NCBI RefSeq assembly: GCF_020509005.1
Contig: NC_063015.1
Location: forward strand, 4,898,001-4,962,000
DNA: 64,000 nt
DNA from: Fulvia fulva
Taxonomy: Eukaryota > Ascomycota > Dothideomycetes > Mycosphaerellales > Mycosphaerellaceae
Direction: 5' to 3'
Under the pieces are notes generated by a model that saw only the letters and a program-made list of their open reading frames with translations, searched no databases and was not told the DNA's origin. The position numbers and the translations under genes were made by a program. Positions 1,816-54,259 of the stretch are shown here, piece after piece. Positions within the stretch are counted from its first letter, which is position 1, and the number at the start of each line of letters is the position of its first letter.

Positions 1816-2118
1816 GTCGACGACGAGAATCACCTGTACGTGGTGTCGGCTACGAACCTCTCGTCTAGCTACGAGAGAGCCAAGTATTCTCACGCTGGAG
1901 CGTCGTGGGCGCGACGGGCGCGCAGCGTAGGCGAAGCCGCGGCGAACAGAGGACTACTAGCAAAACGGGTATGAAAACCATCCGACGAGCGTGTACTCGT
2001 GTCGGGAGCGAGTCCCTCTTCTTTCTACGTGTAAGAAGGGCGCGGAACCGTGGCCTATACGCTCGACAGGACACCTCTGGTATGAGTGCAGAATTTTCAC
2101 CTCCGGAGACCGTAAACC

Positions 2119-2202
2119 GAGCGGGCTATACGACGAACATTGGACGAGCGGACTATAGAACAACAACTGAGCGGACTATACAACGGCGTCGAGCGGACTA
2201 CG
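2119..2202 (+). repeat. Four spaced GAGCGGACTATA motifs
   Basis: GAGCGGGCTATA at 2119, GAGCGGACTATA at 2146 and 2169, and GAGCGGACTACG at 2191, with spacings of 27, 23 and 22 bp. The set recurs in the second module copy (about 51257-51340) with RIP-type changes. The function is unknown; binding sites for a protein on DNA or RNA are one possibility. Confidence 0.75.
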
Positions 2203-2365
2203 AAACAATCTGGTGTTTGCTAGCGGGCAATGCGGTGGGTAGGTGGACACGCGACGAAGCCTGTAAGGGCCTGTTGAACACCCGGTATAGGAACGAGGGT
2301 TTTGCCTAAGGCACTGCCTGTCCCGCTATACAACGCACCTAGTCTGACATAGTAGATTGCGACGA

Positions 2366-2421
2366 GGAAAAGACGATAGCCTAAGCAAGGAAAAGACGGC
2401 TATTAGGACGGGGAAAAGACG
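2366..2421 (+). repeat. Three GGAAAAGACG motifs at 23-bp period
   Basis: GGAAAAGACG begins at 2366, 2389 and 2412, an exact 23-bp period, with only partly similar DNA between the units. The same three motifs are present in the second module copy near 51500-51556. The motifs are conserved better than the spacers. Confidence 0.75.
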
Positions 2422-2893
2422 TATAATGCAAGTGGATTAGTTCTGTGATCGGGGAGGATCGAGGGCAGGGTGATAAGGAACTTCATATTAGTTAGTAGGT
2501 GGAAACGCAAGGAGTACGCTGCCCGGCGTGGTGTGTGCCCCGAGCAAACCTACGAGGCATAGACGGCCGCTTTCTAGAGATAGGCTGCGGTAACGCGAAG
2601 GGCGTCAAAACCTAGGGCGTGGTATACACTAGTAGCGACGGCTGACACTGTCTGTACAGCCCGAGAGGACGGATGCGTATGTCGGTCAATAGAGAGCACT
2701 AAAGGGCTCAGGCCTATAGAGGTGGATATTGGCTTAAGGAGCAAACAGGGAGGGAGGGCGTAGAGGGAAGCTTTTGCTCCGGGCTAACCTCTCGAAACGA
2801 GGCTACACGGTGGTGCTAGATGAGTAGGAAAGCGCGGTTAAGACTTGTCACCTTATCTCGTAGCTAGCTTGCTAAATACGATTCCTTCCTTGC

Positions 2894-4253
2894 TACGAGG
2901 ACTAGGCTAGGAGGCACGGGGCTCGGTTTGCCCCAGAAAAGTACAATCTGATACACTTTACGCGCCGGCCACGGTTCCACAATATGCAAGCTTCTATCCA
3001 GATATAGGGGCACACGACTAACCCGGCAAATCAGCTTAGGATCCTCGGACTATAGGTGGACCCGGCGCTACGGTGGAGGAAGCACGTATAGGCAATATTA
3101 CGGAAAGCTGAACAGAATATAGCATCATGCCAGAGGCTCACTGCGTCTATATAGGGGGCGGACTTCCGGCAGTCACGACTTCTATATACGGCTATTGTAC
3201 GGCCAGTTCTTACCTATGGCAGCCAAGTGTGGTCCTTAGGCGAGAGGGCCTGCCCATCGAAGGGACTCGTCGCGCCGCTAGCGAAGATCCAAAACCAATG
3301 CCTAAGGAAGGTCACCGGGGTATATAAGTCGACACTAACGAGGATGCTTAAGCACGAGACCGCTATACCGCCGATCGACCTATACATCTAGGGACTACGG
3401 ACCTCCTACTTAGGCAAGTCGGCACAGTACCTAGTATAGAAGGTCATCGCCAGTGTAGTCGTAAGGGCCCGCGAATCAGTACTAGCGTATAGGGGCATTC
3501 GACCCGGAAACGAGCCGAACTACCGGGCAAGGGACGAACAGCTAGCAACACAATAGGAAGGTGAGAAATCGTTTATAGAGCAACTATGGAAAGAGAGGTG
3601 GAACAACCAGGTTATAGGGCATAGTAGACGCCCTTAGCCAGCGGGACAACCTAAGGAATGGTCAGCTACAAAATCCGCGGTCAAGCACCCCCCGAAGCTC
3701 ATCCACTACCGCCTTACGAGGGCACAGAGTAGCATAGCAACCCAACTGCGAAGCGAACACATCGGCCTCCAGGGGTACCTATCATAGAGGAAGGTTCTAG
3801 GATACACGAATACTAGCTGCCCCTGCGGCTATCGCTCCCAGAACGTACGGCACGCACTCCTCGTCTGTCCGAGGTGGTCGCTAGGAAGGGGGGAGTGGAT
3901 GGCAAAGGCGAGGAACCGGACGATTGGGGCACTTCTTAACAACGCTGAGGACCTACGGCGCATTACGAACTGGATACTAGAGAAGGGCTGGCTAGAACAG
4001 TACCGCCTAGTAGGAGCATTGCAGGAAGAGAGGACACGACGTAGCGCGACGAGACCGGCTGGGAGCGGGGGCTAACGGGGTAGTGACATGGACTACGTAC
4101 GTTCAGAGGGAAAGCTAAACTAGACAAGGAGTAGTCGGGGGCGGGAAGGGTTTTCACCTATTCGGGTTTCCCTTTGTACATAACAATAGATATATACCTG
4201 CATAGGCCGGATAGGGTCCTAGAACAGGGGAATGACAAATCTATCTATCTATC
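2894..4253 (+). pseudogene. Truncated LINE A ORF2 3' end and 3' UTR in composite 1
   Basis: Starts at tacgaggactaggc, which corresponds to 24562 in LINE A copy 1, just downstream of the RT FVDD catalytic box. It therefore holds only the thumb region, the C-terminal zinc-binding segment (pattern C.CGYRSQNVRHALLVCPRW near 3825-3875) and the 3' UTR with the (ATCT)n tail. In-frame stops are TAG/TAA. It cannot encode a functional reverse transcriptase. The 3' UTR is intact, which fits mobilisation by a LINE A enzyme that recognises this end. Confidence 0.88.
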
Positions 4254-4725
4254 TATATATAGAAAGGGAGGGGGCAATCTCTAGGGATACTTGGACTCTA
4301 ACTACGCTATAGACAAAGTGGATAGAGTCTCAATTCTAGGATACGTATAGTTTCTTTATAGATCACCTATGTCCTAGATAAGTAGGAAGCAGAAGTCTGT
4401 TATAATATTAATAATAAAAGCTGAGTTTATAGCTATAAACGTAGCCGTAAAGTAGTCACAATTTCTTGCTACTGTCCTTAGGGAAATGGGGTGCCTAGAA
4501 CTAGTGGGAAAGAGCTCTTTCTAGCCGAGTATAAGGGCAAGTAAGGGCACTATTAACGAGCTAAGGCTAGTCAAGCTTATAGGTAATAACTAAGCCGCTT
4601 TGACACTTGTTAAAGATGCCTATATATATAAAAGGTCAAAGTATATTGATGTTTTATATAACTATATTAGACATCTCTAGTAGTAGAAGAAGATTATAGT
4701 AGACTACTACTATATAAAGGATATA
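4254..4725 (+). pseudogene. RIP-degraded copia pol, part 2 (RNase H)
   Basis: Continues the copia frame of 1-1815 after the composite insertion. Residues around GYLDSNYAIDKVDRVSILGY (4290-4350) and KAEFIAINVAVKQSQFL (4417-4467) line up with the RNase H of the element at 10759-12648. Catalytic Asp codons are in places changed to Asn by RIP. It is cut at 4725 by LINE B copy 1, whose 12-15-bp target duplication (ataaaggatata) occupies 4714-4725 and 9653-9664. The frame resumes at 9650. Confidence 0.87.
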
Positions 4726-4808
4726 CAAGCTAGAATATATAGATTAAAGGAGGGGGCGACCTTCACAAAGGCCTAGACTATATACAAGGCTAAAAACGGC
4801 GTGACACG

Positions 4809-6068
4809 ATGATAGCGATCGCAGGAAACGACTAGGAGCAGGAGAGTAACGAGTGGAAGGAGGTCTGCAGGAAGGCAGAAACAATGGCAATGGCAGGAGA
4901 TGGCGAGCACCTAGAAAGAGCACTTAAGGGGATGATTTTGGAGCTCCTTGGAGGGCTAAAGGCACTAAGGAGCCAAACAGGACAGATCATTAACAGGACA
5001 GTAGCAGCAGCAGCAAAGAAGAGGACACAGGAAGGCCAGAAACTAAGCTAACCAACCTGGGCAGCAGTTGCATCCCAAAACCCTCCCCCCTAGAAAACAG
5101 CTATTAAGGTCTACATTTCCGACCAGCAAGAGCTAAAAGAGATTGAGGGCCTGTTAGGCAAGGAGATCATACAGAAGATTGGGATACAAGGCATCATTAG
5201 AGCTAGGAAAGAGAAGGGAGGTGTCCTTAAGCTGTTCACAGCACAGGAGCAAGACAGGAAGAGGCTAGAGACACAGAAGGAGTGGACAGTCAAACTAGGC
5301 AAGACGGCTAAGGTCTCACACTAACAAAATATGGTTATTGCCTATAGGATGACTACAAAGTTTGACATTGAAGGAGACCTTAAGAGGCTACAGGACTAGA
5401 ACCAGGCTGTATGCCCAGGGCTACAGATCACAAAAGCAGCATAGGTCAACAGAAAGACAAAGGACACAAAGAGAGAGTCTTCTCTAGTGCTCTCGATAGG
5501 CACTGTAGAACAGGCAAACACCGTGCTTGACAAGGGCATCTTCTAGGAATGCGAAAGAATGGACACAGAAATCTATAGAAGCACCCACAGACTACTGCAA
5601 TGTTTCAAGTGCTAACAGTATAGTCATATCTCTACTAGATGCCCAAGCCAAAAGGACACTTGTTCCCACTATGCTAGTAGCCACAAAGTACAGAATTGCA
5701 CAGCCCTAAAGAGTGAAGCCAGATGTGCATGCTGTGGAAAGAAACACCCTTCCTGGTCCCAAGACTGCACAGCTAGGATTGAGGCAAAGAGGAGGGCAAG
5801 AGAAGCCAGGATCAACACCCCTATCAGATTCCAGACAGGGACAATCACCCAAGAACCCCTAAGGACTGTCTACAACCCTCTGAAAAGAGGCAGAACAGAA
5901 GAGACCACACAGGCCCAAGGCCACCCTGCTATAGGTAGACCAAAATCAATTGTGGTTGCAGGAAGAGACCCGTCACAAAGCAGGCTCAACCTTACCACAA
6001 TCCTAAATAGCAGCTAGCAGCAGGAAGCACGAGAAGACTAGCAGGAGACCAGCATAGATGAGTCATGA
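4809..6068 (+). pseudogene. LINE B ORF1, gag-like nucleic-acid-binding protein with zinc knuckles
   Basis: One uninterrupted 420-codon frame from ATG 4809 (MIAIAGND) to TGA 6066-6068, broken only by TAG/TAA. The N-terminal third is Glu/Lys-rich and probably helical. The C-terminal third has a CCHC knuckle (CFKC.QYSHISTRC; CX2CX4HX4C, about 5600-5640), a degenerate second one, and a third Cys/His cluster (CACCGKKHPSWSQDC near 5735-5780). This order is typical of Tad1-type LINE ORF1 proteins, which coat the element RNA. The TGA terminator cannot arise by CpA to TpA change, so it is the original end. It overlaps the ORF2 start as ATGA. Confidence 0.88.
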
Positions 6069-9000
6069 TTGAGACACCTAATCTTACCACTATCTAGTAC
6101 AATGTCAACAAAAGCCAGCACAAGGTCCAGAGAAGCTTTCTCTAAGCACTGGACCCAAAGAAACACCTAGTCATTGCAGTCTAGGAACCTTAGATCAATA
6201 GCAAATCTAACAGACCATCTACTACTAACGACCTAAGGTATCACACACTCCTAGCCAAACAAGGCACCCCTAGAACATGCATGTACATCAGCAAAGAGAT
6301 GGCAACAGACAGCTGGGAACAAATCCAATAGGAAGGGGGAGACATCACCTTAGTCAGACTCAACACTAACCAAGGTAGCATCCACATCCATAGTGTATAC
6401 AATCCACCCCCCAGCTCCAGAAGTAGCACCTAGCTAGGCATACTACAACAGCTGCTAGACATCCTACAGAGTGACTCCCAACACATCGTGCTAGGAGACT
6501 TCAACTTGCACCATCCTACATAGGGATCAGACTTTGCACCTGCCTATCACTTCCTAGCTAACAGACTCCTCTCCACTACCCAAAGCAACAACATGCACCT
6601 AGTTACCCCAAAGGGCCTAACTACCTGGTCATAGAGAGCAAGCTCAAGCACCATTGACCTGTGCTTTGTATCACATGACCTGCAGCAGAAGGTCACCAGA
6701 TGCTGGGTTAACCAGGACTTGGAGTCCTCATCAGATCACCTCCCAATTCAGGTGGAGTTTGAAACACAGACACAGCAGGAAGGAGACCTAGAACCTCAGC
6801 TGGCCTGGAAGGCAGCCAACTGGGAACAGATCAGACAAGACCTGGAACAGAAGCTAGCTGGACTAGAGACTAGGAGACTGGAAACAGCCTTAGACATAGA
6901 CCAAGCAGTGGCAGAACTGGTTAGAACAATGCAGGAAACTGCGGCAGCCTACACTAGAGTAAAGAAACAGTCACTGTACTAGAAGCCATTCTGGACAAAG
7001 GAATGCTCAGAGAAGGTCAAGGCAGCCAGGCAGGCCAGGAGAGCCCTTACCTAGAGTCACTCCTAGGAAGCATAGGACAGATACAACCAGGCAACTAGAG
7101 ACAAGAAGGCCCAGATCAAGAGGGACAAGATGCTGGAGTGGAGGTCAACAGTTGGATCCATTACCCAGAATCCTGAGAAGATGTGGAAACTAGCAAAGTG
7201 GGCAAGACAACCCACACAGGACAGAAACATGCTGCCCTAGTTTCCAAACATTGAAGACCAGGAAGGAGTAATCTAACACACTCTCCCAGGAAAGGCACAG
7301 GCATTAGGAAAACATTTCTTTGGCACACAGGTAGAAGCTGACCTGCAGGATCTGGAGGGCAGTGTGTATCCAACATCACTAGAGCAATCCTGCATAGTAG
7401 GAGAGGGAGAGATCAAGAGCATCATTAAGACACTCTCAGGAAACAAGGCCCTAGGACTAGATAGGATTCCAAACTTGTTCATTAAGACATACAAGGACCA
7501 GATCTCCCCTGCACTGTCAAACATCTTTTCACAGTGTATGGCCTAAGGACACTGCCCTAAACACTTCAAGGAGTCACTGACTGTGGTCTTGAGAAAACTA
7601 TAGAAAGAGGACTACACAAAGCTAAAGGCATACAGACCTATTGCCTTGCTCAACACACTAGGCAAACTCCTAGAAAAGATCATAGCAGAAAGGCTGACAA
7701 ACCTAGCTGAAGAACATAGAATCCTTCCTAAAGAACAGATAGGAGGCAGGAAACAAAGATCAACACTAACAGCTGTAGAACTTATCATAGAGCAGATCAA
7801 GACCCTATAGCACTTTAGGAACAACAAAGCAGCCACACTCCTCTTACTAGACATATCAGGAGCCTTTGACAATATCTCACACTAGAGGCTAATCCACATC
7901 CTGAAACAGAAGGCTATCCCCAACTAGACAGTCCAGTTCATCCAGTCCTTCCTTAGAGGCAGAACCACAAGACTAAGACTAGGCAGATACAAATCTGACA
8001 GCATGCCTACAGAGACGGGAATCCTACAGGGATCAACAATGTCTCTAATCCTGTTTCTCCTCTTTATAGCAGACCTGCTAGCAAAGCTAAACTCTAGAAA
8101 CATATCAGCCTCAGGGTTTGTAGATGACACAAACATCCTAGCCTGGTTAGACAGCACAGAAGAGAACTGCAGAATCTTGCAGAAGAAACACAAGGAATGT
8201 GAGGAATAGGCCAGGAAACATGGAGCCAGATTTGCCCTAGAGAAGTATCAACTCATCCACTTCAGTAGAGCTAGAAACAGACACAATATGCAAGCCCCAA
8301 TCACTATTCAGGGACACACAACAGAACCCTTAAGTGAATTAAGGGTGCTAGGAATATGGATAGATCCAAAGCTCAGCTAGGGACCATAGGTCAAGAAAGC
8401 ACAGGCAAGAGCAGACAACAACAGGCAATCAATTGACAGGCTTACAGCCTCCATATAGGGAGCCACATTTGCGAAAGCAAAGGTTATGTACAAGGCCATT
8501 GTGAAGCCAGCCATGCTATATGGAGCCTAGATCTGGTTAGCCTAAGACAAGATCCTAAAGAGAATTGTAGATCCTATTAGCAGAGCCCAAGCCTCCTGTC
8601 TGAAAAAGGTGCTTGGAGCATACAAGTCAACTCCAACAAGGGTGGTCGAAATGGAGTCTGGCTCCCCACCAGCCAAGCTCTACCTTCAAGGGTTGAGATA
8701 CCAGTATACAGGAAAGACGTCTGCATACCCAGCCTAGCTAGTAATCCAGAAGGCAGTCAACAAAATCAGGAGCTAGTGCACAAGAAGGCATAGACAAGCA
8801 AGACCCAATCCAGCCCTACAGAAGCAGCAGGACCTGCAGAAGTTCAAAGAACTAACAGAACAGCTGCACCTAGCCTAGCAGGAACAGGACAGAAGGGCTC
8901 AAGGGAGAGGATCAGCAGCCAGCCAAGGGAAGAAGCAACAGTCTCTAGCTAAAAGGATGGCAGGACTCCTCTGGAAGACTAAATAGACAAGAACCCTATA

Positions 9001-9505
9001 GAGGCCAGGAACCCTAAAGGCACTCTAACAGTTTTGTAGCCACAACTACCTACTGTACTCAGACCTGACCAGGTCAGAAGCAAGCATAGCAATACAAATC
9101 CGCTCTGAACACATCGGAGTCAGGGCATACCTACATCAGAGAAAAGTCCTAGGTATCGAAGACAGGAGTTGCCTATACGGCTACCTGTCCCAGAATGTCG
9201 AACATAGACTTCTGGTTTGCAAAGAATGGAGTACAGGGAGAGGTGAATGGAGGGCAAGGGCAAGGAACAGAAACTTCTAAGCTATAATCAGCAATAAGGG
9301 AGACCTCTAGAGAATTACAAGGTGGATCATCCACCAAGGATTTTTGGAGCAGTTCTCTCTTACTAGGGAAACAGAGAGATGGATTGAGGAGAGAAAGAAG
9401 GAGGAGGAGGAGAGCAGGAAGAGGGGGACAACTCTAGGGTTGCAGACAAGGTAGTCAGAGGCTAACCACCATGACACTAGTGCACCCTAATGGAAGGAAA
9501 ACTGA
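6065..9505 (+). pseudogene. LINE B ORF2, endonuclease and reverse transcriptase
   Basis: A 1147-codon frame from ATG 6065 to TGA 9503-9505; positions 6719, 7364, 8003, 8675 and 9107 all fall in the same phase. Order: an apurinic-type endonuclease (YNVNKSQ start, HIVLGDFNLHHP near 6484-6520, SSDHLPIQVEF near 6722-6760); a reverse transcriptase (LGLDRIPNLFIK near 7450-7490, LDISGAFDNISH near 7849-7885, SGFVDDTNILAWLDS near 8110-8155 with the DD pair intact); then a C-terminal Cys/His segment (C.YGYLSQNVEHRLLVC near 9172-9215). The enzyme would nick the target and copy its own RNA there (target-primed reverse transcription). Stops are TAG/TAA only, at former Trp or Gln positions; the terminal TGA is original. 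Confidence 0.9.
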
Positions 9506-9649
9506 GAACTCATAGCAAGGAAGCTATTAGAGAAGGAGAGGAGGTTTTTACCTAGGAATAGGTTTCCTACCTTATGCAGTAACATATATAGACATAAACC
9601 CGCATAGGCCGGAGGGCACCACAACGGGTAAATGAATCATCTATCTATC

Positions 9650-9774
9650 TACATAAAGGATATAGCTACTAATAGGTTAATAAAGCCCCTTAATAGCTAG
9701 TAGTTCCAAAGCTTTATAAGGTAGCTCTAGCTTACGTAAAGGGATTGTAGGAGACCATATGGCCTAAGTAGGAG
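9650..9774 (+). pseudogene. RIP-degraded copia pol, part 3 (C-terminal end) and polypurine tract
   Basis: After LINE B the copia frame resumes and ends with FQSFIR.L.L (9708-9738), equivalent to the last residues FQRFVSQLNLS of the intact element. The purine-rich gtaggag immediately before TGTTAAG at 9775 is the expected polypurine tract, which primes plus-strand DNA synthesis. Confidence 0.82.
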
Positions 9775-10705: not shown

Positions 10706-10758
10706 TCGTATGGGAGGTTACAGTCTGCTCACTTCCTGTCAATAGTACTTGGACCTTT

Positions 10759-20948: not shown

Positions 20949-21155
20949 AATCGCTCATCGATCTCTACGCCAAAACAAGACACATTCGAAAGCTCTTATT
21001 AAGGCCATTCTAACGATATATAAAGCAGGCCACTGCCCCTAGGACTAAGGGAGTTCTACCTCATTCAATCTAGACAGCTTGAAGCTCTCTTCACCCTGTT
21101 TCTTTAGCTCTAAACGCCGCGGAGGTACCTAGCTACATTAGGCAACTCCTAGGCA

Positions 21156-22433
21156 ATGGCAGCCTAGGCTACGGCACTAACGGCGCCTACGGCCCTATAG
21201 GCGAAGCCCCCCTAAGACAACTGGCAGCAACTTATAGAGGACGCAAAAAGTATAGAAACTAACGATCAGCTCCCTTACCGGTCTCTACAGGTAATGATCA
21301 CTTAGCTACGCACGGCGCTTGTACTGTCGTATCACCGAGGGCAACAAGAAATGAGGACGACGTCCTAGGCGATTAGCAAGGCCACCCGGAATCAACACCC
21401 CTATAGCTAGGCATCGGTCGCGGCATCGATACTAGGCCCCCGCCTAACGCACGATGTAGTTACGATCCGTATTGCAGCAAAGGAAGACTAGGCCGAAGTT
21501 GCGAAGCTATCGAATAAGGAGCTCGCCTAACGAATTAACCAACTAGGGGTGGTCGTAGTGAACTAATAGTCTAACGGCACTCTATAGATCTATACTAGCT
21601 CTACTACTGCTAGGAGGTACCTAGAGGCACAGCTATAGTGGGCATCTAGGGTTGCGGCATTAGCGAAGGTCTTAACGAAACAATTCACGATCCTAGTCCA
21701 CGACATGCCTAAGGAGTTTGACCTAACTAACCAGGGTCACCTACGCGCTCTCTAAGAGGACAACCCGGTCACTCTTAACTCTCTAATCCAGAAGGCGACT
21801 TGGCTCTATAGGAAATGGCTAGAAGGCAAGAAGGCCTCGGCGCTAATAGTATAGCTATAAGACGCGAAAGCGGCGGATCTAGCGATAGAACAAGGCCTGG
21901 TCTAGCAATATAGCCTTAAGACAGTAGAAAAGCACTCCTCATCCTTTCGTGTCCTCTAATGCTTCAAATACCAATAGTATAGATACCAAACCTATACGTA
22001 TATAAACAAGCAGGCCTGCTCGAACTGTATAGGAGACTATATGTCTAGGGACTGTACATCGACTACAAGACGGTGCGCGAAATGTCCGGGGCACTACCTA
22101 TCGTATAGTGCGGAATGCCTATAGCGGAAACTAGCGAAAAACAAGGCAATTACAAACAGAACCGTCGCCCCAAGATTCTACGGCGACCGTAAGGCTAGCC
22201 TACACCGGAACTAACTAGCGGCGGTCGGGCACAAGCGCCCTAGGGCCGAGAACGATATAAAGGATACGCAACCTAGGGCGTACGGGAGGCCACGTGCTCT
22301 ACTAGCTACGGCGAGGGAATCTAACTAGGCCCGGCTCCCCTTTAGTATATAGCCGATAGGCGTAGACCAGGACGTATAGGGCAGTAGGACATAGGACGAT
22401 ATAGAGGAAATGATTGTCGATGCCGATGACTAG
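21156..22433 (+). pseudogene. LINE A ORF1, gag-like protein with zinc knuckles
   Basis: A 426-codon frame from ATG 21156 (MAA.ATALTAPTAL) to TAG 22431-22433, interrupted by TAG/TAA. The middle contains a helical, Ala/Lys-rich part (VAALAKVLTKQFTILVHDMP near 21650-21720). Near the C-terminus are Cys/His clusters: CSNCIGDYMSRDC at 22017-22055 (expected His now Tyr, a CpA to TpA effect) and CAKCPGHYLSYSAEC at 22077-22121, after a decayed first knuckle (CFKY). It would bind and chaperone element RNA. The final TAG lies 5 nt after the ORF2 ATG, so the ORFs overlap slightly; whether that TAG is original or RIP-made is unclear. Confidence 0.82.
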
Positions 22434-25400
22434 CCTCGACACGCTTAGCATTATCTAGTATAACGTTAACCATAGCAAGGATATAGTCTAGAACCATTTC
22501 CTACACGAGGCGGACCCGCGCGTCTACTACGTCCTTACAATCTAGGAGCTATAGATTAACCCGCACTATAAGAGACCAACGACCTACAAGTCACTAGGCT
22601 ACACGACATGCCTACGAGGCGACGGCAGACCCCGCACGTACTTCTATGTCAGCAAGGACATACTAGAATCCGACTGGGAGGTAGTGTACTACGTAGACGA
22701 AGAAGGCGGGGGCGATATTACCTCCCTCCACGTAGGTAGCACCTAGATACACAACCTATATATACAACCGCTAGCCTCGAGGTCTAGCCGCGACCTAGGG
22801 GTCTGTAGACACCTAGACAGTGCGCTCAAGAGACAAGGGTGCCACATCGTAGTAGGAGACTTCAACATACACTACCCTTCCTAGGAAAGCCTTATATAGC
22901 CGCACCCTATAGCCGACGAAGTACTCGACTTGATAGCGAGCAACGCAATTGCCCTTAATACCCCGAAGGACCTAGGCACCTAGAAGAGAGGGGGACTCCA
23001 AGGCACGATCGACCTCTCCTAGATCTTAGATAGCCACTACTATACGGTAACCTACTATAGGATCGAACATAAACTCGAGGCGTCGTCAGACCACATGCTA
23101 GTCAGGACCTCTATTGCGACACAGATACAACGCACACTAGCGAGAACCCCTAAGCCAAACTAGGGAAAGGCCTACTAGGCTAACATCTAGGCGTACCTCG
23201 ATAACTCTAAGAGGCTAGTCCAGATCGCGTAGCAGCAATATAACAGTAAAGACGAGATAGACGAAGTAGTCTAGGGGTTGACAGACGAAATAAGAAAAGC
23301 GACCTCACTTCACGTTCCGCTTGCCTAACTAACGATATGGTCCAAACTATACTGGACGCCGGAGTGCACTACGGTAGTAAGAGAAGCAAGGAGAGCCCGC
23401 CGGGTATAGACGAGCAGCTATAGCGAGGAGGCCTAGAACGTATATAGGGAGGCATACCAACAGAAGAAAGCCATAATACGAAGGGAGAAAGCAGTCGGCT
23501 AGAGGGCTATAGTGGAAGAAATCGCCGGCAAGCCAGAGAGGATGTGGAAGCTAGCGAAATGGGCCCGACAGGACCCTATACAGGGCCCCTCCTTCTCTAT
23601 CCTAGCGCTACAATCGCCTAGTGGCCCGGTTAGCGACCCCGAGGCCAAGGCGCGTCTACTGGCTAGCAAGTTCTTCCCGCCCCTAGTCGAGGCTAATCTA
23701 AGCGACATAAACAGCTCTACTCCCCTAGCCCCTAGCATCGCGGTCTAATAGGAGGTGTCCGAGGGAGAAGTTACCGCTATGCTAAGGATGTTGCCGGCGA
23801 AGAAAGCCCCGGGGCCGGATGGGATCCCAAACGAGCTACTAAAGAAGTGTAGAGATCAACTAGCCCTAGTAGTTGCAGCGATCTTTAACGCCTGCCTACA
23901 GACCGGGTACCACCCGATAGCTTTTAAACAATCGACGACAGTAGTCCTACGCAAGCCGCAGAAGGAAGACTATACGCAGGTGAAGTCGTACCGCCTAATT
24001 GCGCTCCTTAACACTCTTAGGAAGGCGCTTGAGAAGCTGGTTATAACGAGACTCTCCGAGGCGGCAGAGGAACACTCCCTACTCCCGGACACCTAGATAG
24101 GTGCGCGCCTATAGCGATCGACGCTATCCGCGATGGAACTTATCACCTCTTAGGTAAAGGCCATCTAGTATAAGAATAGGGACAAGGTGGCTTCCTTACT
24201 TAGCCTAGACATATCGGGAGCCTTCGACTACGTGTCACACCCGCGGCTACTCTACATCCTAAGGTCGAAGGGACTCCCTGAGTGGCTTGTCAACTTCGTA
24301 CGGTCCTACCTCTAAAACCGTAGTACGTCGATCCTGGTCGGCTAGTACAGAAGCCCATTTCAAGCAGTCTATACTAGAATCCCGTAAGGCTTAACGCTAG
24401 CACCTATTCTGTTCCTCTTCTTTATAGCGACGCTGCTCCCAGCCCTAGAATCCTAGAACACCGCTGCGAGCGGCTTCGTAGACGACACAAACATCCTAGC
24501 GTGGTCTTCCTCGACTAAGGAGAACTGTAGGCTACTAGAAGAGAAGCACAAGATCTACGAGGACTGGGCTAGGAGGCATAGGGCTCGGTTTGCCCTAGAA
24601 AAGTACAATCTGATACACTTTACGCGCCGGCTACGGTTCCACAATATACAAGCTTCTATCTAGATATAGGGGCACACGACTAACCCGGCAAATCAGCTCA
24701 GGATCCTCGGACTATAGGTAGACCCGGCGCTACGGTAGAGGAAGCACGTATAGGCAATATTACGGAAAGCTGAACAGAATATAGCATCATGCCAGAGGCT
24801 CACTACGTCTATATAGGGGGCGGACTTCCGGCAGTCACGACTTCTATATACGGCTATTATACGGCCAGTCCTTACCTATAGCAGCTAAGTGTGGTCCTTA
24901 GGCGAGAGGGCCTGCCTGTCGAAGGGACTCGTCGCGCCGCTAGCGAAGATCCAAAACCAATGCCTAAGGAAGGTCACCGGGGTATATAAGTCGATACTAA
25001 CGAGGATACTTAAGCACGAGACCGCTATACCGCCGATCGACCTATACATCTAGGGACTACGGACCTCCTACTTAGGCAAGTCGGCACAGTACCTAGTACA
25101 GAAGGTCATCGCCAGTGCAGTCGCAAGGGCCCGCGAATCAGTACTAGCGTATAGGGGCATTCGACCCGGAAACGAGCCGAACTACCGGGCAAGGGACGAA
25201 CAGCTAGCAACACAATAGGAAGGTGAGAAATCGTTTATAGAGCAACTATGGAAAGAGAGGTGGAACAACCAGGTTATAGGGCATAGTAGACGCCCTTAGC
25301 CAGCGGGACAACCTAAGGAATGGTCAGCTACAAAATCCGCGGTCAAGCACCCCCCGAAGCTCATCCACTACCGCCTTACGAGGGCACAGAGTAGCATAGC

Positions 25401-34300: not shown

Positions 34301-34741
34301 GTTGAAGTCTCCTAGCACGATGTGTTGGGAGTCACTCTGTAGGATGTCTAGCAGCTGTTGTAGTATGCCTAGCTAGGTGCTACTTCTGGAGCTGGGGGGT
34401 GGATTGTATACACTATGGATGTGGATGCTACCTTGGTTAGTGTTGAGTCTGACTAAGGTGATGTCTCCCCCTTCCTATTGGATTTGTTCCCAGCTGTCTG
34501 TTGCCATCTCTTTGCTGATGTACATGCATGTTCTAGGGGTGCCTTGTTTGGCTAGGAGTGTGTGATACCTTAGGTCGTTAGTAGTAGATGGTCTGTTAGA
34601 TTTGCTATTGATCTAAGGTTCCTAGACTGCAATGACTAGGTGTTTCTTTGGGTCCAGTGCTTAGAGAAAGCTTCTCTGGACCTTGTGCTGGCTTTTGTTG
34701 ACATTGTACTAGATAGTGGTAAGATTAGGTGTCTCAATCAT
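31301..34741 (-). pseudogene. LINE B copy 2 ORF2, endonuclease and reverse transcriptase
   Basis: Same 1147-codon frame as 6065-9505: ATG at 34741-34739, TGA at 31303-31301. Endonuclease SSDHLPIQVEF begins near 34081; the RT FVDDTNILAW box lies around 32660-32695. Stops are shared with copy 1. One visible amino-acid difference is MYPTP here versus MYPTS in copy 1 (33442-33428), where copy 1 has a C to T change before A. Confidence 0.9.
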
Positions 34742-35997
34742 GACTCATCTATGCTGGTCTCCTGCTAGTCTTCTCGTGCTTCCTGCTGCTAGCTGCTATT
34801 TAGGATTGTGGTAAGGTTGAGCCTGCTTTGTGACGGGTCTCTTCCTGCAACCACAATTGATTTTGGTCTACCTATAGCAGGGTGGCCTTGGGCCTGTGTG
34901 GTCTCTTCTGTTCTGCCTCTTTTCAGAGGGTTGTAGACAGTCCTTAGGGGTTCTTGGGTGATTGTCCCTGTCTGGAATCTGATAGGGGTGTTGATCCTGG
35001 CTTCTCTTGCCCTCCTCTTTGCCTCAATCCTAGCTGTGCAGTCTTGGGACCAGGAAGGGTGTTTCTTTCCACAGCATGCACATCTGGCTTCACTCTTTAG
35101 GGCTGTGCAATTCTGTACTTTGTGGCTACTAGCATAGTGGGAACAAGTGTCCTTTTGGCTTGGGCATCTAGTAGAGATATGACTATACTGTTAGCACTTG
35201 AAACATTGCAGTAGTCTGTGGGTGCTTCTATAGATTTCTGTGTCCATTCTTTCGCATTCCTAGAAGATGCCCTTGTCAAGCACGGTGTTTGCCTGTTCTA
35301 CAGTGCCTATCGAGAGCACTAGAGAAGACTCTCTCTTTGTGTCCTTTGTCTTTCTGTTGACCTATGCTGCTTTTGTGATCTGTAGCCCTGGGCATACAGC
35401 CTGGTTCTAGTCCTGTAGCCTCTTAAGGTCTCCTTCAATGTCAAACTTTGTAGTCATCCTATAGGCAATAACCATATTTTGTTAGTGTGAGACCTTAGCC
35501 GTCTTGCCTAGTTTGACTGTCCACTCCTTCTGTGTCTCTAGCCTCTTCCTGTCTTGCTCCTGTGCTGTGAACAGCTTAAGGACACCTCCCTTCTCTTTCC
35601 TAGCTCTAATGATGCCTTGTATCCCAATCTTCTGTATGATCTCCTTGCCTAACAGGCCCTCAATCTCTTTTAGCTCTTGCTGGTCGGAAATGTAGACCTT
35701 AATAGCTGTTTTCTAGGGGGGAGGGTTTTAGGATGCAACTGCTGCCCAGGTTGGTTAGCTTAGTTTCTGGCCTTCCTATGTCCTCTTCTTTGCTGCTGCT
35801 GCTACTGTCCTGTTAATGATCTGTCCTGTTTGGCTCCTTAGTGCCTTTAGCCCTCCAAGGAGCTCCAAAATCATCCCCTTAAGTGCTCTTTCTAGGTGCT
35901 CGCCATCTCCTGCCATTGCCATTGTTTCTGCCTTCCTACAGACCTCCTTCCACTCGTTACTCTCCTGCTCCTGGTCGTTTCCTGCGATCGCTATCAT
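34738..35997 (-). pseudogene. LINE B copy 2 ORF1, gag-like protein with zinc knuckles
   Basis: ATG 35997, TGA 34740-34738, overlapping the ORF2 ATG as ATGA exactly as in copy 1. The first 73 codons are open, further than in copy 1, because codon 9 is still CAG; the frame then meets a private TAG (cA to tA) in the KKRT.EG context. Zinc-knuckle region near 35210-35060. Otherwise as in copy 1. Confidence 0.88.
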
Positions 35998-36005
35998 CGT
36001 GTCAC

Positions 36006-40062: not shown

Positions 40063-43000
40063 AATAAATAAATAAATAAATACATTTGGAATGCCTATCT
40101 AGCTCCTAAAAGGTCTACGAGGCCGGGGGCTATTAAGGAAGAGAGAGGGGAAAACCGTCGTACGGGGAAAAACCCTCTTTAGGTATTAGTAAATTCTCTC
40201 TATTACTTATCGGTTAATCTGTCGTACTAGAAGCGGTAAGTACTAGGTAGTTAGCCGCCCCGGAGTACTAATCTGCCCGGTACCTAGGAACGAGTGTTAG
40301 TAGCTAGCCGACTATCGAGTAGACGACAGGTCGACTATAAGTAGAGGCGGGTCGCCTATCGAGTAGGAGACAGGTCGACCGTCGAGCAGAGAACGAGCTA
40401 GCCGTCGAGTAGACGACGAGTCGACCCTTCCGGGCTCCTATACTCTATTAGTACCCCTATCGCTATTCCTCCTATCTCGGGGTCGCTATAGGCTACGGTC
40501 TACCCGTATACGTAGTCGTCGGTACCGCCGGAGTCCTACTACGTCTATAGATAGGGCGCCTTCGAAGGCTTCCTAGAGCTCTCCCTCCTAGGCTATCTCC
40601 CCTATTCTTACTACTATCTCACCCGCTATCTAGAACTACTATAGTAGGCCGGTCCGTATTACTATTCGTACCGCTACTCGTATCCTACGCGCTATACCTA
40701 TTATATATTAGAAGTCTATAGCCCTAGTCTCGAGGCGTATTACCTACCGGGCTTCTATAAAGCGTAGGTAGAATAGTACGACGTGTTTCGGCGTCTAGAC
40801 ACGTCTATATTCGTATAGGCTACTATCTACTTCCGGTACCTTTCGGCGGTATAGATAGTCCTTAAACCTAATATATTCCGAGCGGAGTAGTATCGCGACT
40901 GTTACCTATAGGCGGGTAAGGGCTCGAAAGAGCATTACCCTATCTCGGCTAATAGGTCCTGTCTTCGCCGCTACCTCGTCTTCTCGTCGGTATACTCGTC
41001 GCCGTAGTAGTTACCCGTTCGGGTGCCGTTCGCCTTTCTTCTAGCGCTCGTTCTAGATTCCCTATATCTATCTACGGACCGCGTTTACTATAGCCTTCCG
41101 TTCTTCGCGTCCCTATCCCGCTCCTATTACTAGTATACTACTAGCTAGGGCCTATACGCGGAACTTTACTATCGGGGTTTATTACGTATCTAGCTACCGC
41201 TAGGCCTATAATCCTATCTTCTTTTTAGGCGCTATAGATCGAAGGCTTGTCGTAATCGCCTAGTACGCCGCGCGGATATCGCTCCCTACCTTACTATTAG
41301 CCGTCTAGAGCGTATAGCCTATAGCGAGCTATTAGAGTGTTACGGTCTAAAAGGTAGGAGAAGCTTATTTGTCAGACAAGCGAAGAACGAGGGGAGATCA
41401 CTAGGCAGCCAGTGTATTGGAGTCACTTAGGTCACTCGTGAACGAGGTGACTTAGGGTCACTCGTGAACGAGGTGACTCAGGGTCACTTAGGTCACTCGT
41501 GAGCGAGGTGACCGCGCCAAGACATAGTACTATATAGACGACGCTCCTTTGTAAGTAGATAGGAGCCTCGTGCTCAACTCATTTTAAGTATATACTATAT
41601 ACTGTTTGGGACCACTACCTTCTTAACGAGTCAGAGACATCACTGCAAAGATCCAAGCCCGGTTGGGATAACGTACAGCGGTTCCTAACATAGAGGTAGA
41701 GGTCTCGTAGCGTAATCTACGTATCCGCTTCTAGGACCTACGTCGGTATAGTACGGTATACCCCGGTCGCCCTACGTAAACATTCGTTTTATACGTTTTG
41801 AATCTACTTTATCTAGCTAGTCGCGTAGGATAGATACTAGACTAGTACCCTAAAGGTGATCGCCTGTCGGACGATAGAGCTATATAGCTAGCGTACCTTT
41901 ATAAAGGCTACGCCCTATATAGAGGCCGCGAGGCGTATAACTAAGGCTTTGTTCTAGTCCCCCCGCTACCGGAGCTACTTTAGGTAGGCGTACTACCGGA
42001 GTTACGTATCTACTTAGAATCCTAGGACCCGGATAGATAGCTATAGAGTAATCTAGCTTACGCCGGTCCCGGCCTCGATCGTAGCTTAGAGGTTATACTT
42101 CTTCGGGGTCCTCGTAAGGTAGATTATCTAGTACTTCTTAGGTACGAAGACTACCCCGTATCGCGCTACCTATTCGTTATATACCTCGAGCGCCGCTTCG
42201 AGTTAGCGGTAGTTAGTCTCGGTTAAGTCGCTATATATTAGGATGTTTATATTATCGACAAAGCCTATATAGGAGTTAGTACCGTCGGCGCTTCCCCTAA
42301 GTAGCGGGAGGAGCGTAGAGGCGAAGAAAAGGAAGGGGATTAGAGAGAGCGATAAGCCCTACGGGATCCCCGTTTCCGTAGGCCGTATCTAAGGTTTACG
42401 CTACTTCCCTAGAACGAGCTACGTAGACCGGTTACTAAGGAAGGACTTAACGAACGCGACGAGCTAGCTAGGCAGACCTTTCGCCCGGAGGTTATAGAGT
42501 AGTCGGGCGTAGGAAACTTTGTCGAACGCCCCCGAGATATCGAGGGATAGTAGGGTAGCGACCTATTATCGGCGTATTACCTAGATTATATAAACCTATT
42601 CCGTAACGAGTTCTAGGGCGGTCGTCGTAGACCGCCCTAGTCGGGCTCCTATCTACTCGGCTAGGAGGAGCTAGTACTCCTCGGCTAGCTTAGAGATACG
42701 ATTAGCTACGATACGCTCTAGCGCCTTACCGATTATACTAAGTAGGGCTATCGGGCGGTAGGCCTTCCTTAACGTCGTATCTAGCCTTACCCTCCTTACG
42801 GAGGACGACTATACTCGAGTACCGGAAGGGGGTCGGTACGTATAACTACTAGAGGTATACCGTAAATAGCCCCGCGAGGTATAGGGCGAGCGTCTAGCGG
42901 TAGTACTTAAGGAATCGGTTAGGGATCTTATCTAGTCCTAGGGCCTTATCTAGTAGCGCCGCTTTTAGTAGTATTAGTACCTCCGCCTCCGTTACTTCTT

Positions 43001-45931
43001 AGCTAGTCTCGAGCTCCGTTAGGTATACGAAGCCTTCGATATCGTCGAGTCGGGTAGTAACCGGAGGAGGGAAGAACGCCTCTACTAGCGCGTCGGCTCT
43101 ACCTTACTAGGCTTCCTAGAGGACCCCTTACCTATTACGGATAGGTAGGAACTATAGTAGTAGTAGCGGCGTCTCCGGCTTCCTCGTACGCTTCTACTTA
43201 ACGGGCTTCTAGACCTTACTTCGGTCTCCTATAACTTCACGGACGGCGTTACGCTACGTAATATTACCCTAGCGCCTAATAATCCTACCCTTCTCGTTAT
43301 CTAGTCGGCGGTATCGGGCGTATATAGCGTCCTATTTTGTCTCGTTCTACCGGCGCCGCGCCGCTACTATAATATAGACTATGTCTACGCATTCCTACGA
43401 CTAGGCTAGCGTCGCGTACTTCGAGGGTCGGGTATAGGGGATCTTGTCCCGGATTACTCTTACTATATACTACTATAGGCTCCCTATCGCCGTATCGATT
43501 TCCGCCTCTACGCGGAGGGGTACCGGCGGTACGAGGGCCGTTATTCGTTCTTTTAGTACCTAATTAATCCCCTTCTAGTCCGCTCTCTTCTACTAAGGCC
43601 GTAGTTCTAGGGCTAGTAGCGCCTATAGGTATATTACGTCGAACGTCGTACGGATAGCTAGGTAGTCTAGATAGCCGCTATCGAGTTCTAGGTCCGTATC
43701 GTAGAAGATAGTCCGCTAGGCTATCTACTATATTACGAAGGTTAGGTTAAGCGTCTAGGTCGTATTTTTCTACTAATACGTAGCCGTGCCTACGGAAAGT
43801 ACTAGGCTAATACCGGATCCCTCTACTAGACCGATAAGCGCGTCTACGGCGCTATAGGCCGAGAGTACGCTATTGCCTCCCTATCTTAGGTAGTAGAGGT
43901 TGAGGTCGCCGACTAGGATATATATATTAGCTTGCTCTTAGAGAGCTTCTTAGAGCTAGTAGAGGGTAGCCGACTAGCTATCGTCTTCTATCGAGCCTAG
44001 TACTAAGTACGGGTTATAGGCGTTATAGATAGCTATTGTCTTGCCTTCGGTAAGGCGTAGCTATAGAGAGGCTATGTCGCTAGAGTAGGTATAGGTCGTC
44101 TACGTTATTATCGCGATTTCTTTACTTACGTAGAAGTAGACCCGCGCTACCGGCTAGTCGCCTTAGGGTACTATAAGGTAGTATCTCGGGTCTATAAGTA
44201 TCGTCTTTCCGTTTGTCTACTACTCTTAGATAGCAACTTTATAGTGCCGGCTAGGGTGTAGTAGGCTAAGGAGTAGCTTCTAGGCCTTGTCCTTACTCTT
44301 ATTAGCGTTATACTATACGATAGTTAGCTAGGTAAGCGTACTATTTATAGTTAGACTATTATGTTAGCTATAGTTCTCCCTTCTACCTCCGTAGGTTTAG
44401 TACTATATTGTCGTCCTCGTCGCCCTCGCCCTCGCCTTCGTTATCCTATCGCGGGGCCGGCGTCGCTAGCGTAGCTACCGGTAAGGGCGCGCTACCTCCG
44501 TAGGGGCGGAATATCGTCGTATCGAGGCGCGTCTGTCCGAGGCCCTAAGCCCGGGGGTCGGTAAGCGCTAGTCGGCCTACTCCGTATATTAAGCGTCTAT
44601 CGCTATTTAGCCTCCTCTTCTTACTCCTATATATAACCGGCTAGAAGCCGTCGGCGTTAACTCTTAGACGGTATAGTACTATCGCTATTCCTCCTCTTTC
44701 CTACCGTATACCTAGGCGCGCTCCTACCGCCTATTCCGCTACCTACCTCTTTACTCTATATCCGCCTATCTACGCCTTATAGTCCCCGCCGTAGTTAGCG
44801 TACTTACTTATCTTAGGGTAGGGGTATTCGCGGGTATTATATACCTTCGCGTAGTAGCTATAGTAGGTCTCCTACCTATAATACTTTATAGTGTGCCCAA
44901 ATCCCTAGTACCGGAAGCACTAGGTTACTATATAGGTATAGTCGTACTTTTTAACGTAGTAGTACGAGTAGGCTAGGACTAGTCCCTTCTCTATAGCCTA
45001 GATCCTCTAGCTATTATACTTAAACGCGAGTACGAGCGACGAGTGTTTCCGCTCTATTCGTTCCGGCTTCTTTAGCTAGTACGCCCGGGTAATAATAAGG
45101 CCTAGGATAGTAGCCTAGTTGTCCTTTACGATAGCCTCTCCTATCGCTACCGGACTAGTATCTACTAGGAAGGTATTAACTCGGACACCGTATATAAGGG
45201 CCTAGTATACTAGCGCGACCGGCGCTACGCTCTTCGCGTTTAGTACCTCGACCGCCTAGGCTACGCTCTATAGTAGCGTCGGTCTCCCCGCTATAGTTAC
45301 GAGCGTATAGCGTACATCTCTACTCTTTAGCTTCTAGGCTATAATAATGTCTTGTTTACTAGCCTATCGCGCCTACTCTACGAGGCTTTAGTACAATAGT
45401 ACCGCTACCCGCTCTCTTTCTTTAGGGTTGTCTATATATATCGTGGCCTTATACTAAACTAGCCTAACGCGGTACGTTAGTTACTCTACGGCTACTATAG
45501 CCGCTTAGGTATATATCGCCGGCCTAGCTCTTCCTAGCGCCTAGATCTCCCGTAGGAGGTCCGCGTTCGTTACTTTCTTTACTAGCGCTAGCGCCTTCGT
45601 CGCCCGTAGTAGCTCCTAGATCGCTTTAGCTAAGCTCTCGAGGAGGCTACTGATCGCGCGTTCGTAGGGCAGATTAGCGCTCGCGAGGGTAGCTATAATT
45701 TCGTATATAATCGCGGTATATTCTACCGTATCTATACCGTGTTTCGTATACTAGTTCTTCTAGTTAGTAGCTTACGGTTATTATAGTCGTTATAGTAAAT
45801 AGTCTCCGTGTTTCGTTTCTCCCGGGCGCGTCGTCGCTCCGCGCGTTTCCCTTCGTTTGCCGCCTTTCGAGGGCGCTCTTTACTTTTACGACGCTATCGC
45901 CCCTTCGTTTATTATCGTCTATATTTTACGT
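40063..45931 (-). mobile_element. LINE D, RIP-degraded non-LTR retrotransposon with (TTTA)n tail
   Basis: Bounded by the 14-bp repeat taagtaaggaaata. The left end is the 3' tail, a run of aaat units on the plus strand, unlike the (ATCT)n tail of LINE A-C. On the minus strand: a gag-like ORF1 with a zinc knuckle (CFRY.GFGHTIKY, about 44925-44888, one Cys now Tyr); endonuclease between about 44400 and 43600; RT with LLSLDISGAFDKVSYARLL (about 42552-42500), GIP.GLSLSLIPFLFFAS (about 42380-42320) and GFVDNINIL (about 42265-42240, second catalytic Asp now Asn). CpG-rich but nearly CpA-free, with many TAG/TAA. A RIP-free island of 0.3 kb sits inside at 41370-41690. It interrupts gypsy-1B between leader and gag. 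Confidence 0.85.
41370..41690. repeat. RIP-free 321-bp island with palindromic repeats, candidate solo LTR
   Basis: Runs from TGTCAGACAAGCG to GGTTCCTAACA (TG...CA). CpA and TpG are normal here, unlike the LINE D sequence on both sides. It contains three ~23-bp units, each a near-palindrome with arms GGTCACTCGT and ACGAGGTGAC (41430-41452, 41456-41478, 41491-41513), plus partial units. TGACTCA, a Gcn4/AP-1 type site, occurs at 41474-41480, and a ctatatag TATA-like box near 41530. I see no clear 5-bp target duplication, so the solo-LTR call is tentative. At this length it would be shorter than the ~400-bp minimum reported for RIP in Neurospora. Confidence 0.55.
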
Positions 45932-50772: not shown

Positions 50773-50949
50773 ATAGATAGATAGATTTGTTATTCCCCTG
50801 TTCTAGGACCCTATTCGGTCTATATAGGTATATATCTATTGTTATATATAAAGGGAAACCCGAATAGGTGAAAACCCTTCCCGCCCCCGACTACTCCTTA
50901 TCTAGATTAGCTTTCCCTCTAAACGTGCGTAGTCTATATCACTACCCCC
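50773..50949 (-). mobile_element. LINE A copy 3, 3' UTR end
   Basis: The (ATCT)n tail and last ~170 bp of LINE A in reverse orientation, separated from the rest of the copy (54260-58990) by composite retroelement 2. The target duplication tatatcactacccc at 50935-50948 and 54260-54273 proves that both pieces were continuous. Confidence 0.87.
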
Positions 50950-52028
50950 GGTCGACGACGAGAATCACCTGTACGTAGTGTCGGCTACGAACCTCTCGTC
51001 TAGCTACGAGAGAGCCAAGTATTCTCACGCTAGAGCGTCGTAGGCGCGACGGGCGCGCGACGTAGGCGAAGCCGCGGCGAATAGAGGACTACTAGCAAAA
51101 CGGGTATGAAAACCATCCGACGAGCGTGTCCTCGTGTCGGGAGCGAGTCCCTCTTCTTTCTACGTGTAAGAAGGGCGCGGAACCGTAGCCTATACGCTCG
51201 ACAGGACACCTCTAGTATAAGTACAGAATTTTCACCTCCGGAGACCGTAAACCGAGCGGGCTAAGCGACGAACATTAGACGAGCGGACTATAGAACAACA
51301 ACTGAGCGGACTATGTAACGGCGTCGAGCGGACTACGAAACAATCTAGTGTTTGCTAGCGGGCAATGCGGTAGGTAGGTGGACACGCGACGAAGCCTATA
51401 AGGGCCTGTTGAACACCCGGTATAGGAACGAGGGTTTTGCCTAAGGCACTGCCTGTCCCGCTACACAACGCACCTAGTCTAACATAGTAGATTACGACGA
51501 GGAAAAGACGACAGCCTAAGCAAGGAAAAGACGGCTATTAGGACGGGGAAAAGACGTACAATGCAAGTAGATTAGTTCTATAATCGGGGAGGATCGAGGG
51601 CAGGGTAATAAGGAACTTTATATTGGTTAGTAGGTGGAAACGTAAGGAGTACGCTGCCCGGCGTAGTGTGTGCCCCGAGCAAACCTACGAGGCATAGACG
51701 GCCGCTTTCTAGAGATAGGCTACGGTAACGCGAAGGGCGTCAAAACCTAGGGCGTGGTGTATACTAGTAGCGACGGCTGACACTGTCTATATAGCCCGAG
51801 AGGACGGATGCGCATGTCGGTCAATAGAGAGCACTAAAGGGCTTAGGCCTATAGAGGTAGATATTGGCTTAAGGAGCAAACAGGGAGGGAGGGCGTAGAG
51901 GGAAGCTTTTGCTCCGGGCTAACCTCTCGAAACGAGGCTACACGGTAGTGCTAGATAAGTAGGAAAGCGCGGTTAAGACTTGTCACCTTATCTCGTAGCT
52001 AGCTTACTAAATACGATTCCTTCCTTGC
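50950..52028 (+). other. WEIRD-like 5' module, copy 2
   Basis: Collinear with 1816-2893 with no large indel. It is more RIPed: many G or C of copy 1 in TpG/CpA are A or T here (for example tgtacgtag for tgtacgtgg near 50970). The hairpin CTCTCGT/ACGAGAG, the GAGCGGACTATA motifs and the GGAAAAGACG triplet are kept. No open frame is shared with copy 1. Confidence 0.8.
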
Positions 52029-54259
52029 CCTAGACATGGATTGGGCGGTTAGCTCTAACACAGTAATAGGAGTCATAAGTAAGCTAAAAGGACGGAAAGC
52101 CCTAGGCCTAGACAGGATACCAAACATACTACTAAAAGAGTATAGAGAAGAGATCGCGCCGAGCCTAGCAAACCTGTTTACCGCGTGCCTACGGCTAGGG
52201 TATCACCCGAAGCCGTATAGAGAGTCTATAACAGTAGTACTACGTAAGCTATAGAAAGAGGACTATACTCAGCCCAAGTCGTACAGACTAATCGCACTTC
52301 TAAACACGATAGGGAAGGTCCTAGAAAAGATAGTAGCCTAGAGACTTACGCAGCTAGCCGAGGACAACCACGTACTCCTAGTAACACAGATAGGGGGAAG
52401 AAGCTAGCGATCGACACTAATAGTAATAGAGCTAATTACGGAGCAAATTCAGACCCTCTAGCACTACGGCAGGAACCGAGCGGCGTCCTTACTATCCCTC
52501 GACATCGTAGGAGCCTTCGACAACGTCTTATACCAAAGGCTAATACATATCCTACAGTAGAAAGGCATCCCCTAGTAGGCAACGACGTTCGTCTACTCCT
52601 TTCTCTAGGAACGGACGACATACCTAGTCCTAGGAAGGTACACGTCCGACCCGGTAAAGGCAGAGACTGGAATACCTTAGGGATCTACTCTCTCCCCTAT
52701 CCTGTTTCTGATATTTATGTCTGATCTAATCCCCCTACTCACCTCTCCGCAAACCTTAGCATCGGGGTTCGTGGACGACACAAACATCCTAGCCTAGTCA
52801 GACTCGACAGAAGAGAACTGTCGCCTCCTCGAAGATAGGCACAAGAAATGCGAGGAGTAGGCAAAGAAGCATAGTGCTAAGTTCGCCCCTAAAAAGTACC
52901 AACTTATACACTTTAGTAAAGCGAGAACATACTATAATATGAAGGCGGCGGTAAGAATCTAAGGCTACGAGACAAAGCTATTAGCGGAGCTACGAGTACT
53001 AGGGATCTGGCTCGACCCGAAGCTAAGCTAGAATGTATAGGTTAAGAAAGCCTAGAGTCGAGTACAAGTCAACGAAGCCTCGATAAAGAGACTTACGGCA
53101 TCTATATAGGGAGCAACATTCGATAAGGCAAGAGTAATGTATAAGGCGATCGTCAGACTAGCTATGCTATACGGGGCACAGATTTGGGGAACAGGAGGCG
53201 TAGGCAAGCCGATCCCGAAACGGATAGAGCAACCCCTAAACAGGACATAGGCAGGCAACCTACGTAGGGTACTAGGCGTATATAAGACAACGTTAACAAG
53301 CACGGTAGAAATGGAGACAGGAACACCACTAATCGGCTAGTATATCCGGGGAATAAGAATTCAATACGCGGCAAGGACGACAGGTTACCTAGTACAAACT
53401 ACGATCTAGGAGGCAAAGAATAAGATAGAAAGCCACTACCGGAGAGGGGCCGGACATAGGACAAGCCAAAAAGAGGATGACCTTACTACCTTTGCGGCTA
53501 TATAGACAAGCACCGAATAGCTAGCACGAAAAGAGGAGGAGCGTAGGACTCGCTAGGCCGGCGGGAGCAAGGCTAAGACCTAAAGCCTAGCGGAACAGAT
53601 AGCGAGCTACCTATAGGAGCAGGACTAGAAAAAGAAGCCCCCTAAGACAACAGGCCCGATAGCGCTCCGAGCCTTCCAGAGACACAATTACCAGCTATAT
53701 AGGGACCTGACAAGGGCCGAGGCAAGCATAGCGATCCAAATCAGGTCCGAACACATTGGGTTAAGGGCCTACCTGTTTAGAAGACGCGTACTAGACATCT
53801 ATAGCCCAGCCTACCAGTGTGGCTACCTATCGCAAAACCCAGAATATATGCTACTACGATGCCCGCAGTGGGCGAGAGGCAGGGGAAATTGGAGGCACCA
53901 AGCGGGAAGGAGAGACTGCAAGTTAATCATTAGGGACAAAGGCAACATTCGCCGAATCTCTCGGTAGATACTATAGTAGGGATACCTCTAGTAGTTTAGC
54001 CTCGCTAGCGAGACGGAGGAGTAGATAGACAAGAGGCGGAAGCTAGGGGGTGGCAGATAGGGTAGTTATTAGGGCAGGCCTATGACACTAGCGTACCCCT
54101 AACAAGGGAAAATTAAGATAATAACTAGGAGGAAAAGACAGGCGGGAAGGAGGAGGGGTTTTCACTAATACGGTTTCCCCTCTATATATACGAAAACAAG
54201 ATAGTATAGCTGCATAGGCCAAAGGGCACTACAACAGCTTAATGAAATATCTATCTATC
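52029..54259 (+). pseudogene. Truncated LINE C ORF2 (reverse transcriptase to 3' tail)
   Basis: The only copy of LINE C in the window; closest to LINE B in protein. RT blocks: KGRKALGLDRIPNILLKEY (about 52088-52145), LSLDIVGAFDNVLY (about 52492-52535, Gly-Ala-Phe-Asp kept) and LASGFVDDTNILA (about 52756-52795, catalytic DD intact). Then MLYGAQIWGTGG and a C-terminal Cys/His segment (YQCGYLSQNPEYMLLRCPQW, 53812-53872). The endonuclease and ORF1 are absent because the module joins at 52029. Stops are TAG/TAA. The 3' UTR shares a GCATAGGCC block and (ATCT)n tail with LINE A and B. Confidence 0.87.

Follow-up and report, generated by a model that had tools for sequence, protein, structure and literature searches.

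The window, that is, the whole 64,000-nt stretch of Fulvia fulva (C. fulvum) DNA that was analyzed, at 4898001-4962000 of contig 4, contains two composite retroelements, in each of which a module of about 1.08 kb precedes the 3' part of a LINE, as well as LINE copies used for comparison. Its main features, with target site duplications abbreviated as TSDs, are as follows:

1801..1815: 5' TSD of composite 1 (TATATATAGAAAGGG; the last G possibly belongs to the module)
1815..2893, plus strand: module copy 1 (1079 bp counting the first G)
2894..4253, plus strand: LINE A 3' part of composite 1 with (ATCT)n tail (join point equal to 24556)
4254..4268: 3' TSD of composite 1
4745..9651, plus strand: full-length LINE B with a 12-base TSD and without module (comparison copy)
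20972..25918, plus strand: full-length LINE A with TSD and without module (comparison copy)
31151..36005, minus strand: LINE B lacking its first 56 bases, with a 16-base TSD and without module, inside a LINE A copy
41693..43928, minus strand: reverse transcriptase-encoding part of a fifth LINE (joins L074 and L048 fall in the same stretch or beside it)
50933..50948: 5' TSD of composite 2 (TCTATATCACTACCCC), inside a minus-strand LINE A copy
50950..52028, plus strand: module copy 2
52029..54257, plus strand: LINE C 3' part of composite 2 with (ATCT)n tail
54258..54273: 3' TSD of composite 2

Both modules lie in sense to their LINE 3' parts, which come from two different LINEs. As the preliminary description had stated, the two modules are shared sequence (1815-2893 and 50950-52028, 96.0% identity over 1079 bp), copy 2 runs on into a different LINE (LINE C) than copy 1, and both composites end in an (ATCT)n tail. 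Other statements of that description stood in part. The module ends are constant in both copies, but the 5' end reads GGTCGACGACGAG and lies at 1815 (not 1816) and 50950; a single TSD pair encloses each composite, of 15 bp in the first but of 16 bp, not 14 bp, in the second; and composite 1 does continue into LINE A, but at a point equal to 24556 and not 24562 (window 2893-4262 aligns with LINE A 24555-25925 at 97.6% identity). The extra 5' G at 1815 is common to the module and to the TSD of composite 1. Composite 2, located within the tail end of a LINE A copy on the minus strand, has one further C between TSD and module. Its module differs from the majority of 34 complete gapless modules at 46 positions, 41 of them RIP-type, the class to which most differences from this majority belong, and its join is the same as in seven other junction rows of the sample described below.

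A domain scan of the LINE A, B, and C proteins detected RVT_1 in all three and an APE-type endonuclease in A and B; the fifth LINE was recognized only via protein similarity (26-43% identity to A, B, and C). The two LINE B copies (4801-9655 and 31151-36005) are 99.75% identical and lie in opposite orientation. None of the LINE copies in the window has an open frame of at least 200 amino acids, unlike the window's Copia-type LTR retrotransposon (10762-15564, minus strand), which has open frames of 870 and 637 amino acids with integrase, gag, and RVT_2. In the part of the literature consulted, the LINE Tad1 accounts for 29.2-31.0% of repeats in four other C. fulvum isolates (PMC10823647).

The module (GC content = 0.56) is predicted to be non-coding, judging by the absence of a long ORF: the longest stop-free frame has 101 codons in antisense and 79 in sense. 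The suggestion that the captured RNA is unusually structured was not borne out, as the module fold energy is not lower than that of 30 shuffles (z = +1.29). A search of Rfam returned no match at E values up to 5 for the window copy and one chance-level match (E = 2.7, 12.4 bits against a gathering score of 40) for a young copy. A known structured RNA, ribozyme, or intron was accordingly rejected as its identity.

To count module copies, the whole genome (67,169,167 bases in 14 contigs) was scanned for both module ends. The 3' end (22 bases, up to 2 mismatches) was found at 604 places, with none for the reversed control, and the 5' end (16 bases, up to 1 mismatch) at 563 places, with 2 for the control; the two patterns are of unequal sensitivity, so that these numbers are only roughly comparable. 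At an assumed mean length of ~3.6 kb, the composites would account for some 3% of the genome, an estimate based on the 604 copies. Among places found by whole-module similarity, 40 of 41 carry a complete module, the remaining one being a partial copy in the tandem at L058. On contig 1, an exact 5' end lies one module length upstream of 40 of the 43 exact 3' ends (at exactly 1079 in 38 cases). The exceptions are L052, with an altered 5' end; the second copy of the module-module tandem at L054; and L057, a composite that is 5'-truncated within the module. A 13-base direct repeat (module 486-498) lies near the 5' end of L057, as if the polymerase had slipped just before synthesis ended. No module match ending short of the 3' end was present in the DNA examined, except the small internal repeat at L057 (the same as L027). 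A G precedes GTCGACG in all 37 complete module 5' ends read, and in several composites this extra G lies outside the TSD, indicating that it belongs to the module RNA or its cap. Neither an unfused module nor a source gene was found among the 83 places read out of about 604.

These 83 places yielded 84 junction rows (L024 and L054 being one place), 44 from the window and longer loci and 40 from short stretches. The rows come mostly from contigs 1 and 2; eight loci were picked by whole-module similarity, and most rows by an exact module 3' end, a choice that biases the sample toward young copies and a constant end. The preliminary description had called for a check of whether the junctions vary, and they do: the 84 rows contain 55 distinct join sites, 40 of which were seen once, with recurring joins in 8, 5, 5, 3, and 3 rows. 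The Chao1 estimate is ~126 sites, a rough figure for a selected sample. By 150-base matches, the carrier is LINE A in 24 rows, LINE C in 24, LINE B in 11, and LINE D in 7, with LINE parts of 475 to 4863 bases in these assigned rows, and 18 rows fall below the cut-off. Among the latter, L007, L035, L065, and L087 map upstream along the LINE C copy that L044 contains; L055 is LINE C at 88.0% identity; L002 runs into LINE D and is matched by L066; L074 and L048.18 correspond to the fifth LINE of the window; L058, L054, and L024 are module on module; and L041 (two rows), L052.39, L085, L091, and L092 are without family assignment. The targets of joining thus include the module itself and five or more LINE families.

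A strict rule describes where the LINE is entered. Native LINE context was available for 52 of the 55 sites, and 50 were usable after two alignments at 75-77% identity were dropped. The triplet RYC stands just upstream of the join in 45 of these 50 sites (p = 4e-49), against a background of 6.1% of 36,683 positions taken from ten composites. By position, -1 is C in 49 sites, -2 is a pyrimidine in all 50, -3 is a purine in 46, and +1 is a pyrimidine (C or T) in 46. Given C at -1, RYC is found at 45 of 49 sites, against 23.7% expected (p = 5e-24). Five of the 50 joins are not at RYC. The L054 join follows AAC and that of L069 is shifted by one base; both are one C short, as would fit a module RNA with GC, or occasionally just G, at its end. 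The shared C at the join can be assigned to either partner. When C/T and G/A changes are allowed, the LINE resumes at once in all 79 rows with context (66 of them identical), a precision inflated by selection on the exact 3' end. Joins of module on module are also present, one of which, at L058, is at RYC.

Several explanations of this rule were considered and rejected. One-base microhomology alone is inconsistent with the enrichment of R and Y upstream even among C sites; since R and Y are absent from the chimera, plain microhomology cannot account for RYC, and the motif must act on the LINE RNA, as a stop for reverse transcriptase (RT) or as a cut. A codon-boundary effect does not fit with 22 of 41 joins in phase 0, against a background of 48.9%, nor does a spliceosomal acceptor AG fit with a pyrimidine at -2 in 50 of 50 sites.

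The modules themselves indicate that joining is recurrent. L005 (on LINE A) and L007 and L008 (on LINE C) have identical modules, with the same three differences from the majority, at three different joins. Two further haplotypes, defined by 12 diagnostic sites, are likewise spread over carriers: one in L053 (A), L056, L048, and L035 (C), and the other in L045 (D), L044 (A), and L034 (C). Conversely, the join TCAGCATCGG carries two module haplotypes (L008 and L034), as does the join CCTGGACATGG (L056 and L032). The sharing of one module sequence by LINE A and LINE C, and the presence of two haplotypes at a single join, mean that joining took place repeatedly; this cross-over of haplotypes and joins is not the product of one copied chimera. 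Some join recurrences may be copies or DNA duplications (L047/L049; L059-L061). L059-L061 (contig 1: 8826062, 8830729, and 8835400) share a strand and a join, are spaced 4.67 kb from one another, and are probably a tandem duplication of a composite. Taken together, the 604 3' ends, the 55 join sites, the several LINE families, and the haplotype/join cross-over uphold the earlier proposal of a recurrent capture and not a one-off event.

Clear TSD-bounded, truncated LINEs without a module were seen twice in the DNA examined. The first, on the minus strand of L040 near position 6617 of its reverse complement, is a LINE A copy flanked by a 15-base TSD; its truncation point coincides to the base with that of the LINE A part in window composite 1 (GATC), and it has two extra bases, GC. 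The second is window 31151-36005, truncated at GGC. Counts along LINE A (947 at the 5' end, 1120 and 1038 at inner positions, 1382 at the 3' end) show that truncated copies exist; they are non-monotonic and too noisy to give the module-bearing share. On contig 1, an exact module 3' end lies within 6 kb upstream of 16 of 50 LINE C and 7 of 92 LINE A exact ends, tallies that undercount mutated modules.

In 20 composites, one TSD pair of 12-17 bp surrounds the whole composite. The TSD begins with (T)(C)TATAT in 18 of them and with TATT in the other two; such starts prolong the (ATCT)n tail, suggesting that tail and target pair when reverse transcription is primed. The location of the LINE tail, on the 3' side, and the single TSD pair that flanks the composite indicate that copying began with the LINE part, and a truncation inside the module, as in L057, is expected if copying went from LINE to module. 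In the mechanism that we propose, the makers of the composites would be LINEs that encode both reverse transcriptase and an APE-type endonuclease. Target-primed reverse transcription would begin at the (ATCT)n tail of the LINE RNA, LINE copying would halt at an R-Y-C triplet, and the sequence would then pass to a discrete non-coding RNA of 1.08 kb, entered exactly at its 3' end and followed to its 5' end, giving a single insertion with one TSD pair. The module would thus exist as a transcript of its own whose 3' end is defined, and the join would arise where RT switches templates, at RYC sites.

The overall picture, a recurrent LINE-made fusion to one discrete RNA, is very probably correct. 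SVA-like composites are moved by LINE enzymes and have one fixed build, whereas the present composites differ among themselves in LINE part and join, and we consider it very improbable that a few chimeric masters formed once and were then copied as units in the SVA manner. Such copying would agree with the joins that recur and with repeats that are plainly duplicated DNA (the common flanks of L047/L049 and the ~4.67-kb spacing of L059-L061), but not with the 40 of 55 sites seen once, nor with one haplotype at many joins and one join with different haplotypes; it could add to the count, but free recombination among modules would be needed for it to be the main source. There is even less reason to take the module for a LINE family's own 5' region, despite its being at the 5' end, in sense, and mostly complete. 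The LINE parts vary in length, from 475 to 4863 bases, and full-length or near-full-length TSD-bounded copies of LINE A and LINE B in the window start with other sequence, so that this refuting condition of the preliminary description did not materialize in these copies; the copies read included no full-length LINE C or D. Exchange at the DNA level, whether module copies and LINEs recombined or underwent gene conversion, could mix module haplotypes among composites, but TSDs around 20 whole composites, constant module ends, and the RYC motif would not be expected from it, making it a highly implausible source of the joins.

For the joining step itself, we lean slightly toward an RT template switch. 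It is possible, with a clearly lower probability, that the RNAs were joined before reverse transcription, the LINE RNA being cut at RYC^Y and ligated to the module RNA 3' end, by a tRNA-type ligase or by the module's own chemistry, and the chimera retrotransposed as one template. The single precise module end, the strict site rule, which holds on the module itself in L058, and the lack of extra bases in 79 of 79 rows are consistent with this, and RtcB ligation is a stated alternative for human U6/LINE-1 chimeras in the part of that account consulted (PMC13174262). On the other hand, the module has no Rfam match to a ribozyme or intron, the selection on exact 3' ends inflates the precision, and the Magnaporthe authors, in the portion of their report used here, attribute the same type of site to RT pausing (PMC2104539). 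A more tentative extension is that the module is an RNA-level mobile element, joined by its 3' end, ahead of reverse transcription, at RYC^Y sites in LINE RNAs and in other copies of the module through self-catalysis or a ligase pathway, and furnishing a 5' end to truncated LINEs, with different RNAs in two fungal classes obeying the same site rule.

The closest parallel is MINE (WEIRD-MGL) of Magnaporthe grisea/oryzae. The sections of the published account consulted give a WEIRD of 1113 nt, TSDs of 10-20 bp, the switch motif GCC*A/U, at which the authors favour RT pausing, and 31 MINEs (PMC2104539). As in MINE, a complete non-coding RNA of ~1.1 kb lies 5' of a same-sense, 5'-truncated LINE, there are TSDs, hot spots, and a tripartite case, and in those sections no free copy of the RNA was found either (PMC2104539). 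The MINE motif GCC falls within RYC, and 10 of the 13 distinct rows of Table 3 of that account are RYC (PMC2104539). Differences are the 604 module 3' ends and several LINE families here, against 31 MINEs, and the C or T at +1 in 46 of 50 sites here, against A/U in MINE (PMC2104539). Regarding sequence, three published 20-base WEIRD/MINE primers, a comparison limited to the primers and not the whole WEIRD, matched the module no better than chance. The previously proposed MINE parallel holds for anatomy and appears to hold for the motif, which is wider here (RYC|Y), and the module composites probably function as MINE chimeras do. Mammalian U6 snRNA/LINE-1 chimeras also resemble them, with a full-length ncRNA in sense 5' of a truncated LINE, TSDs, and recurrence (PMC13174262). 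They differ in that a known small RNA is involved and copies are far fewer, with a catalogue of 253 for known types, and an RYC-like rule does not appear in the account consulted (PMC13174262).

A limited search of the open-access literature found no report of such composites in C. fulvum. The earlier survey of fusions of an unknown ncRNA with LINEs covered, in the part of it consulted, one fungus and 31 MINEs (PMC2104539). The ~600 natural products present here suffice to define the joining rule, show that it is not tied to one LINE family, and allow a test of template switching against prior RNA joining.
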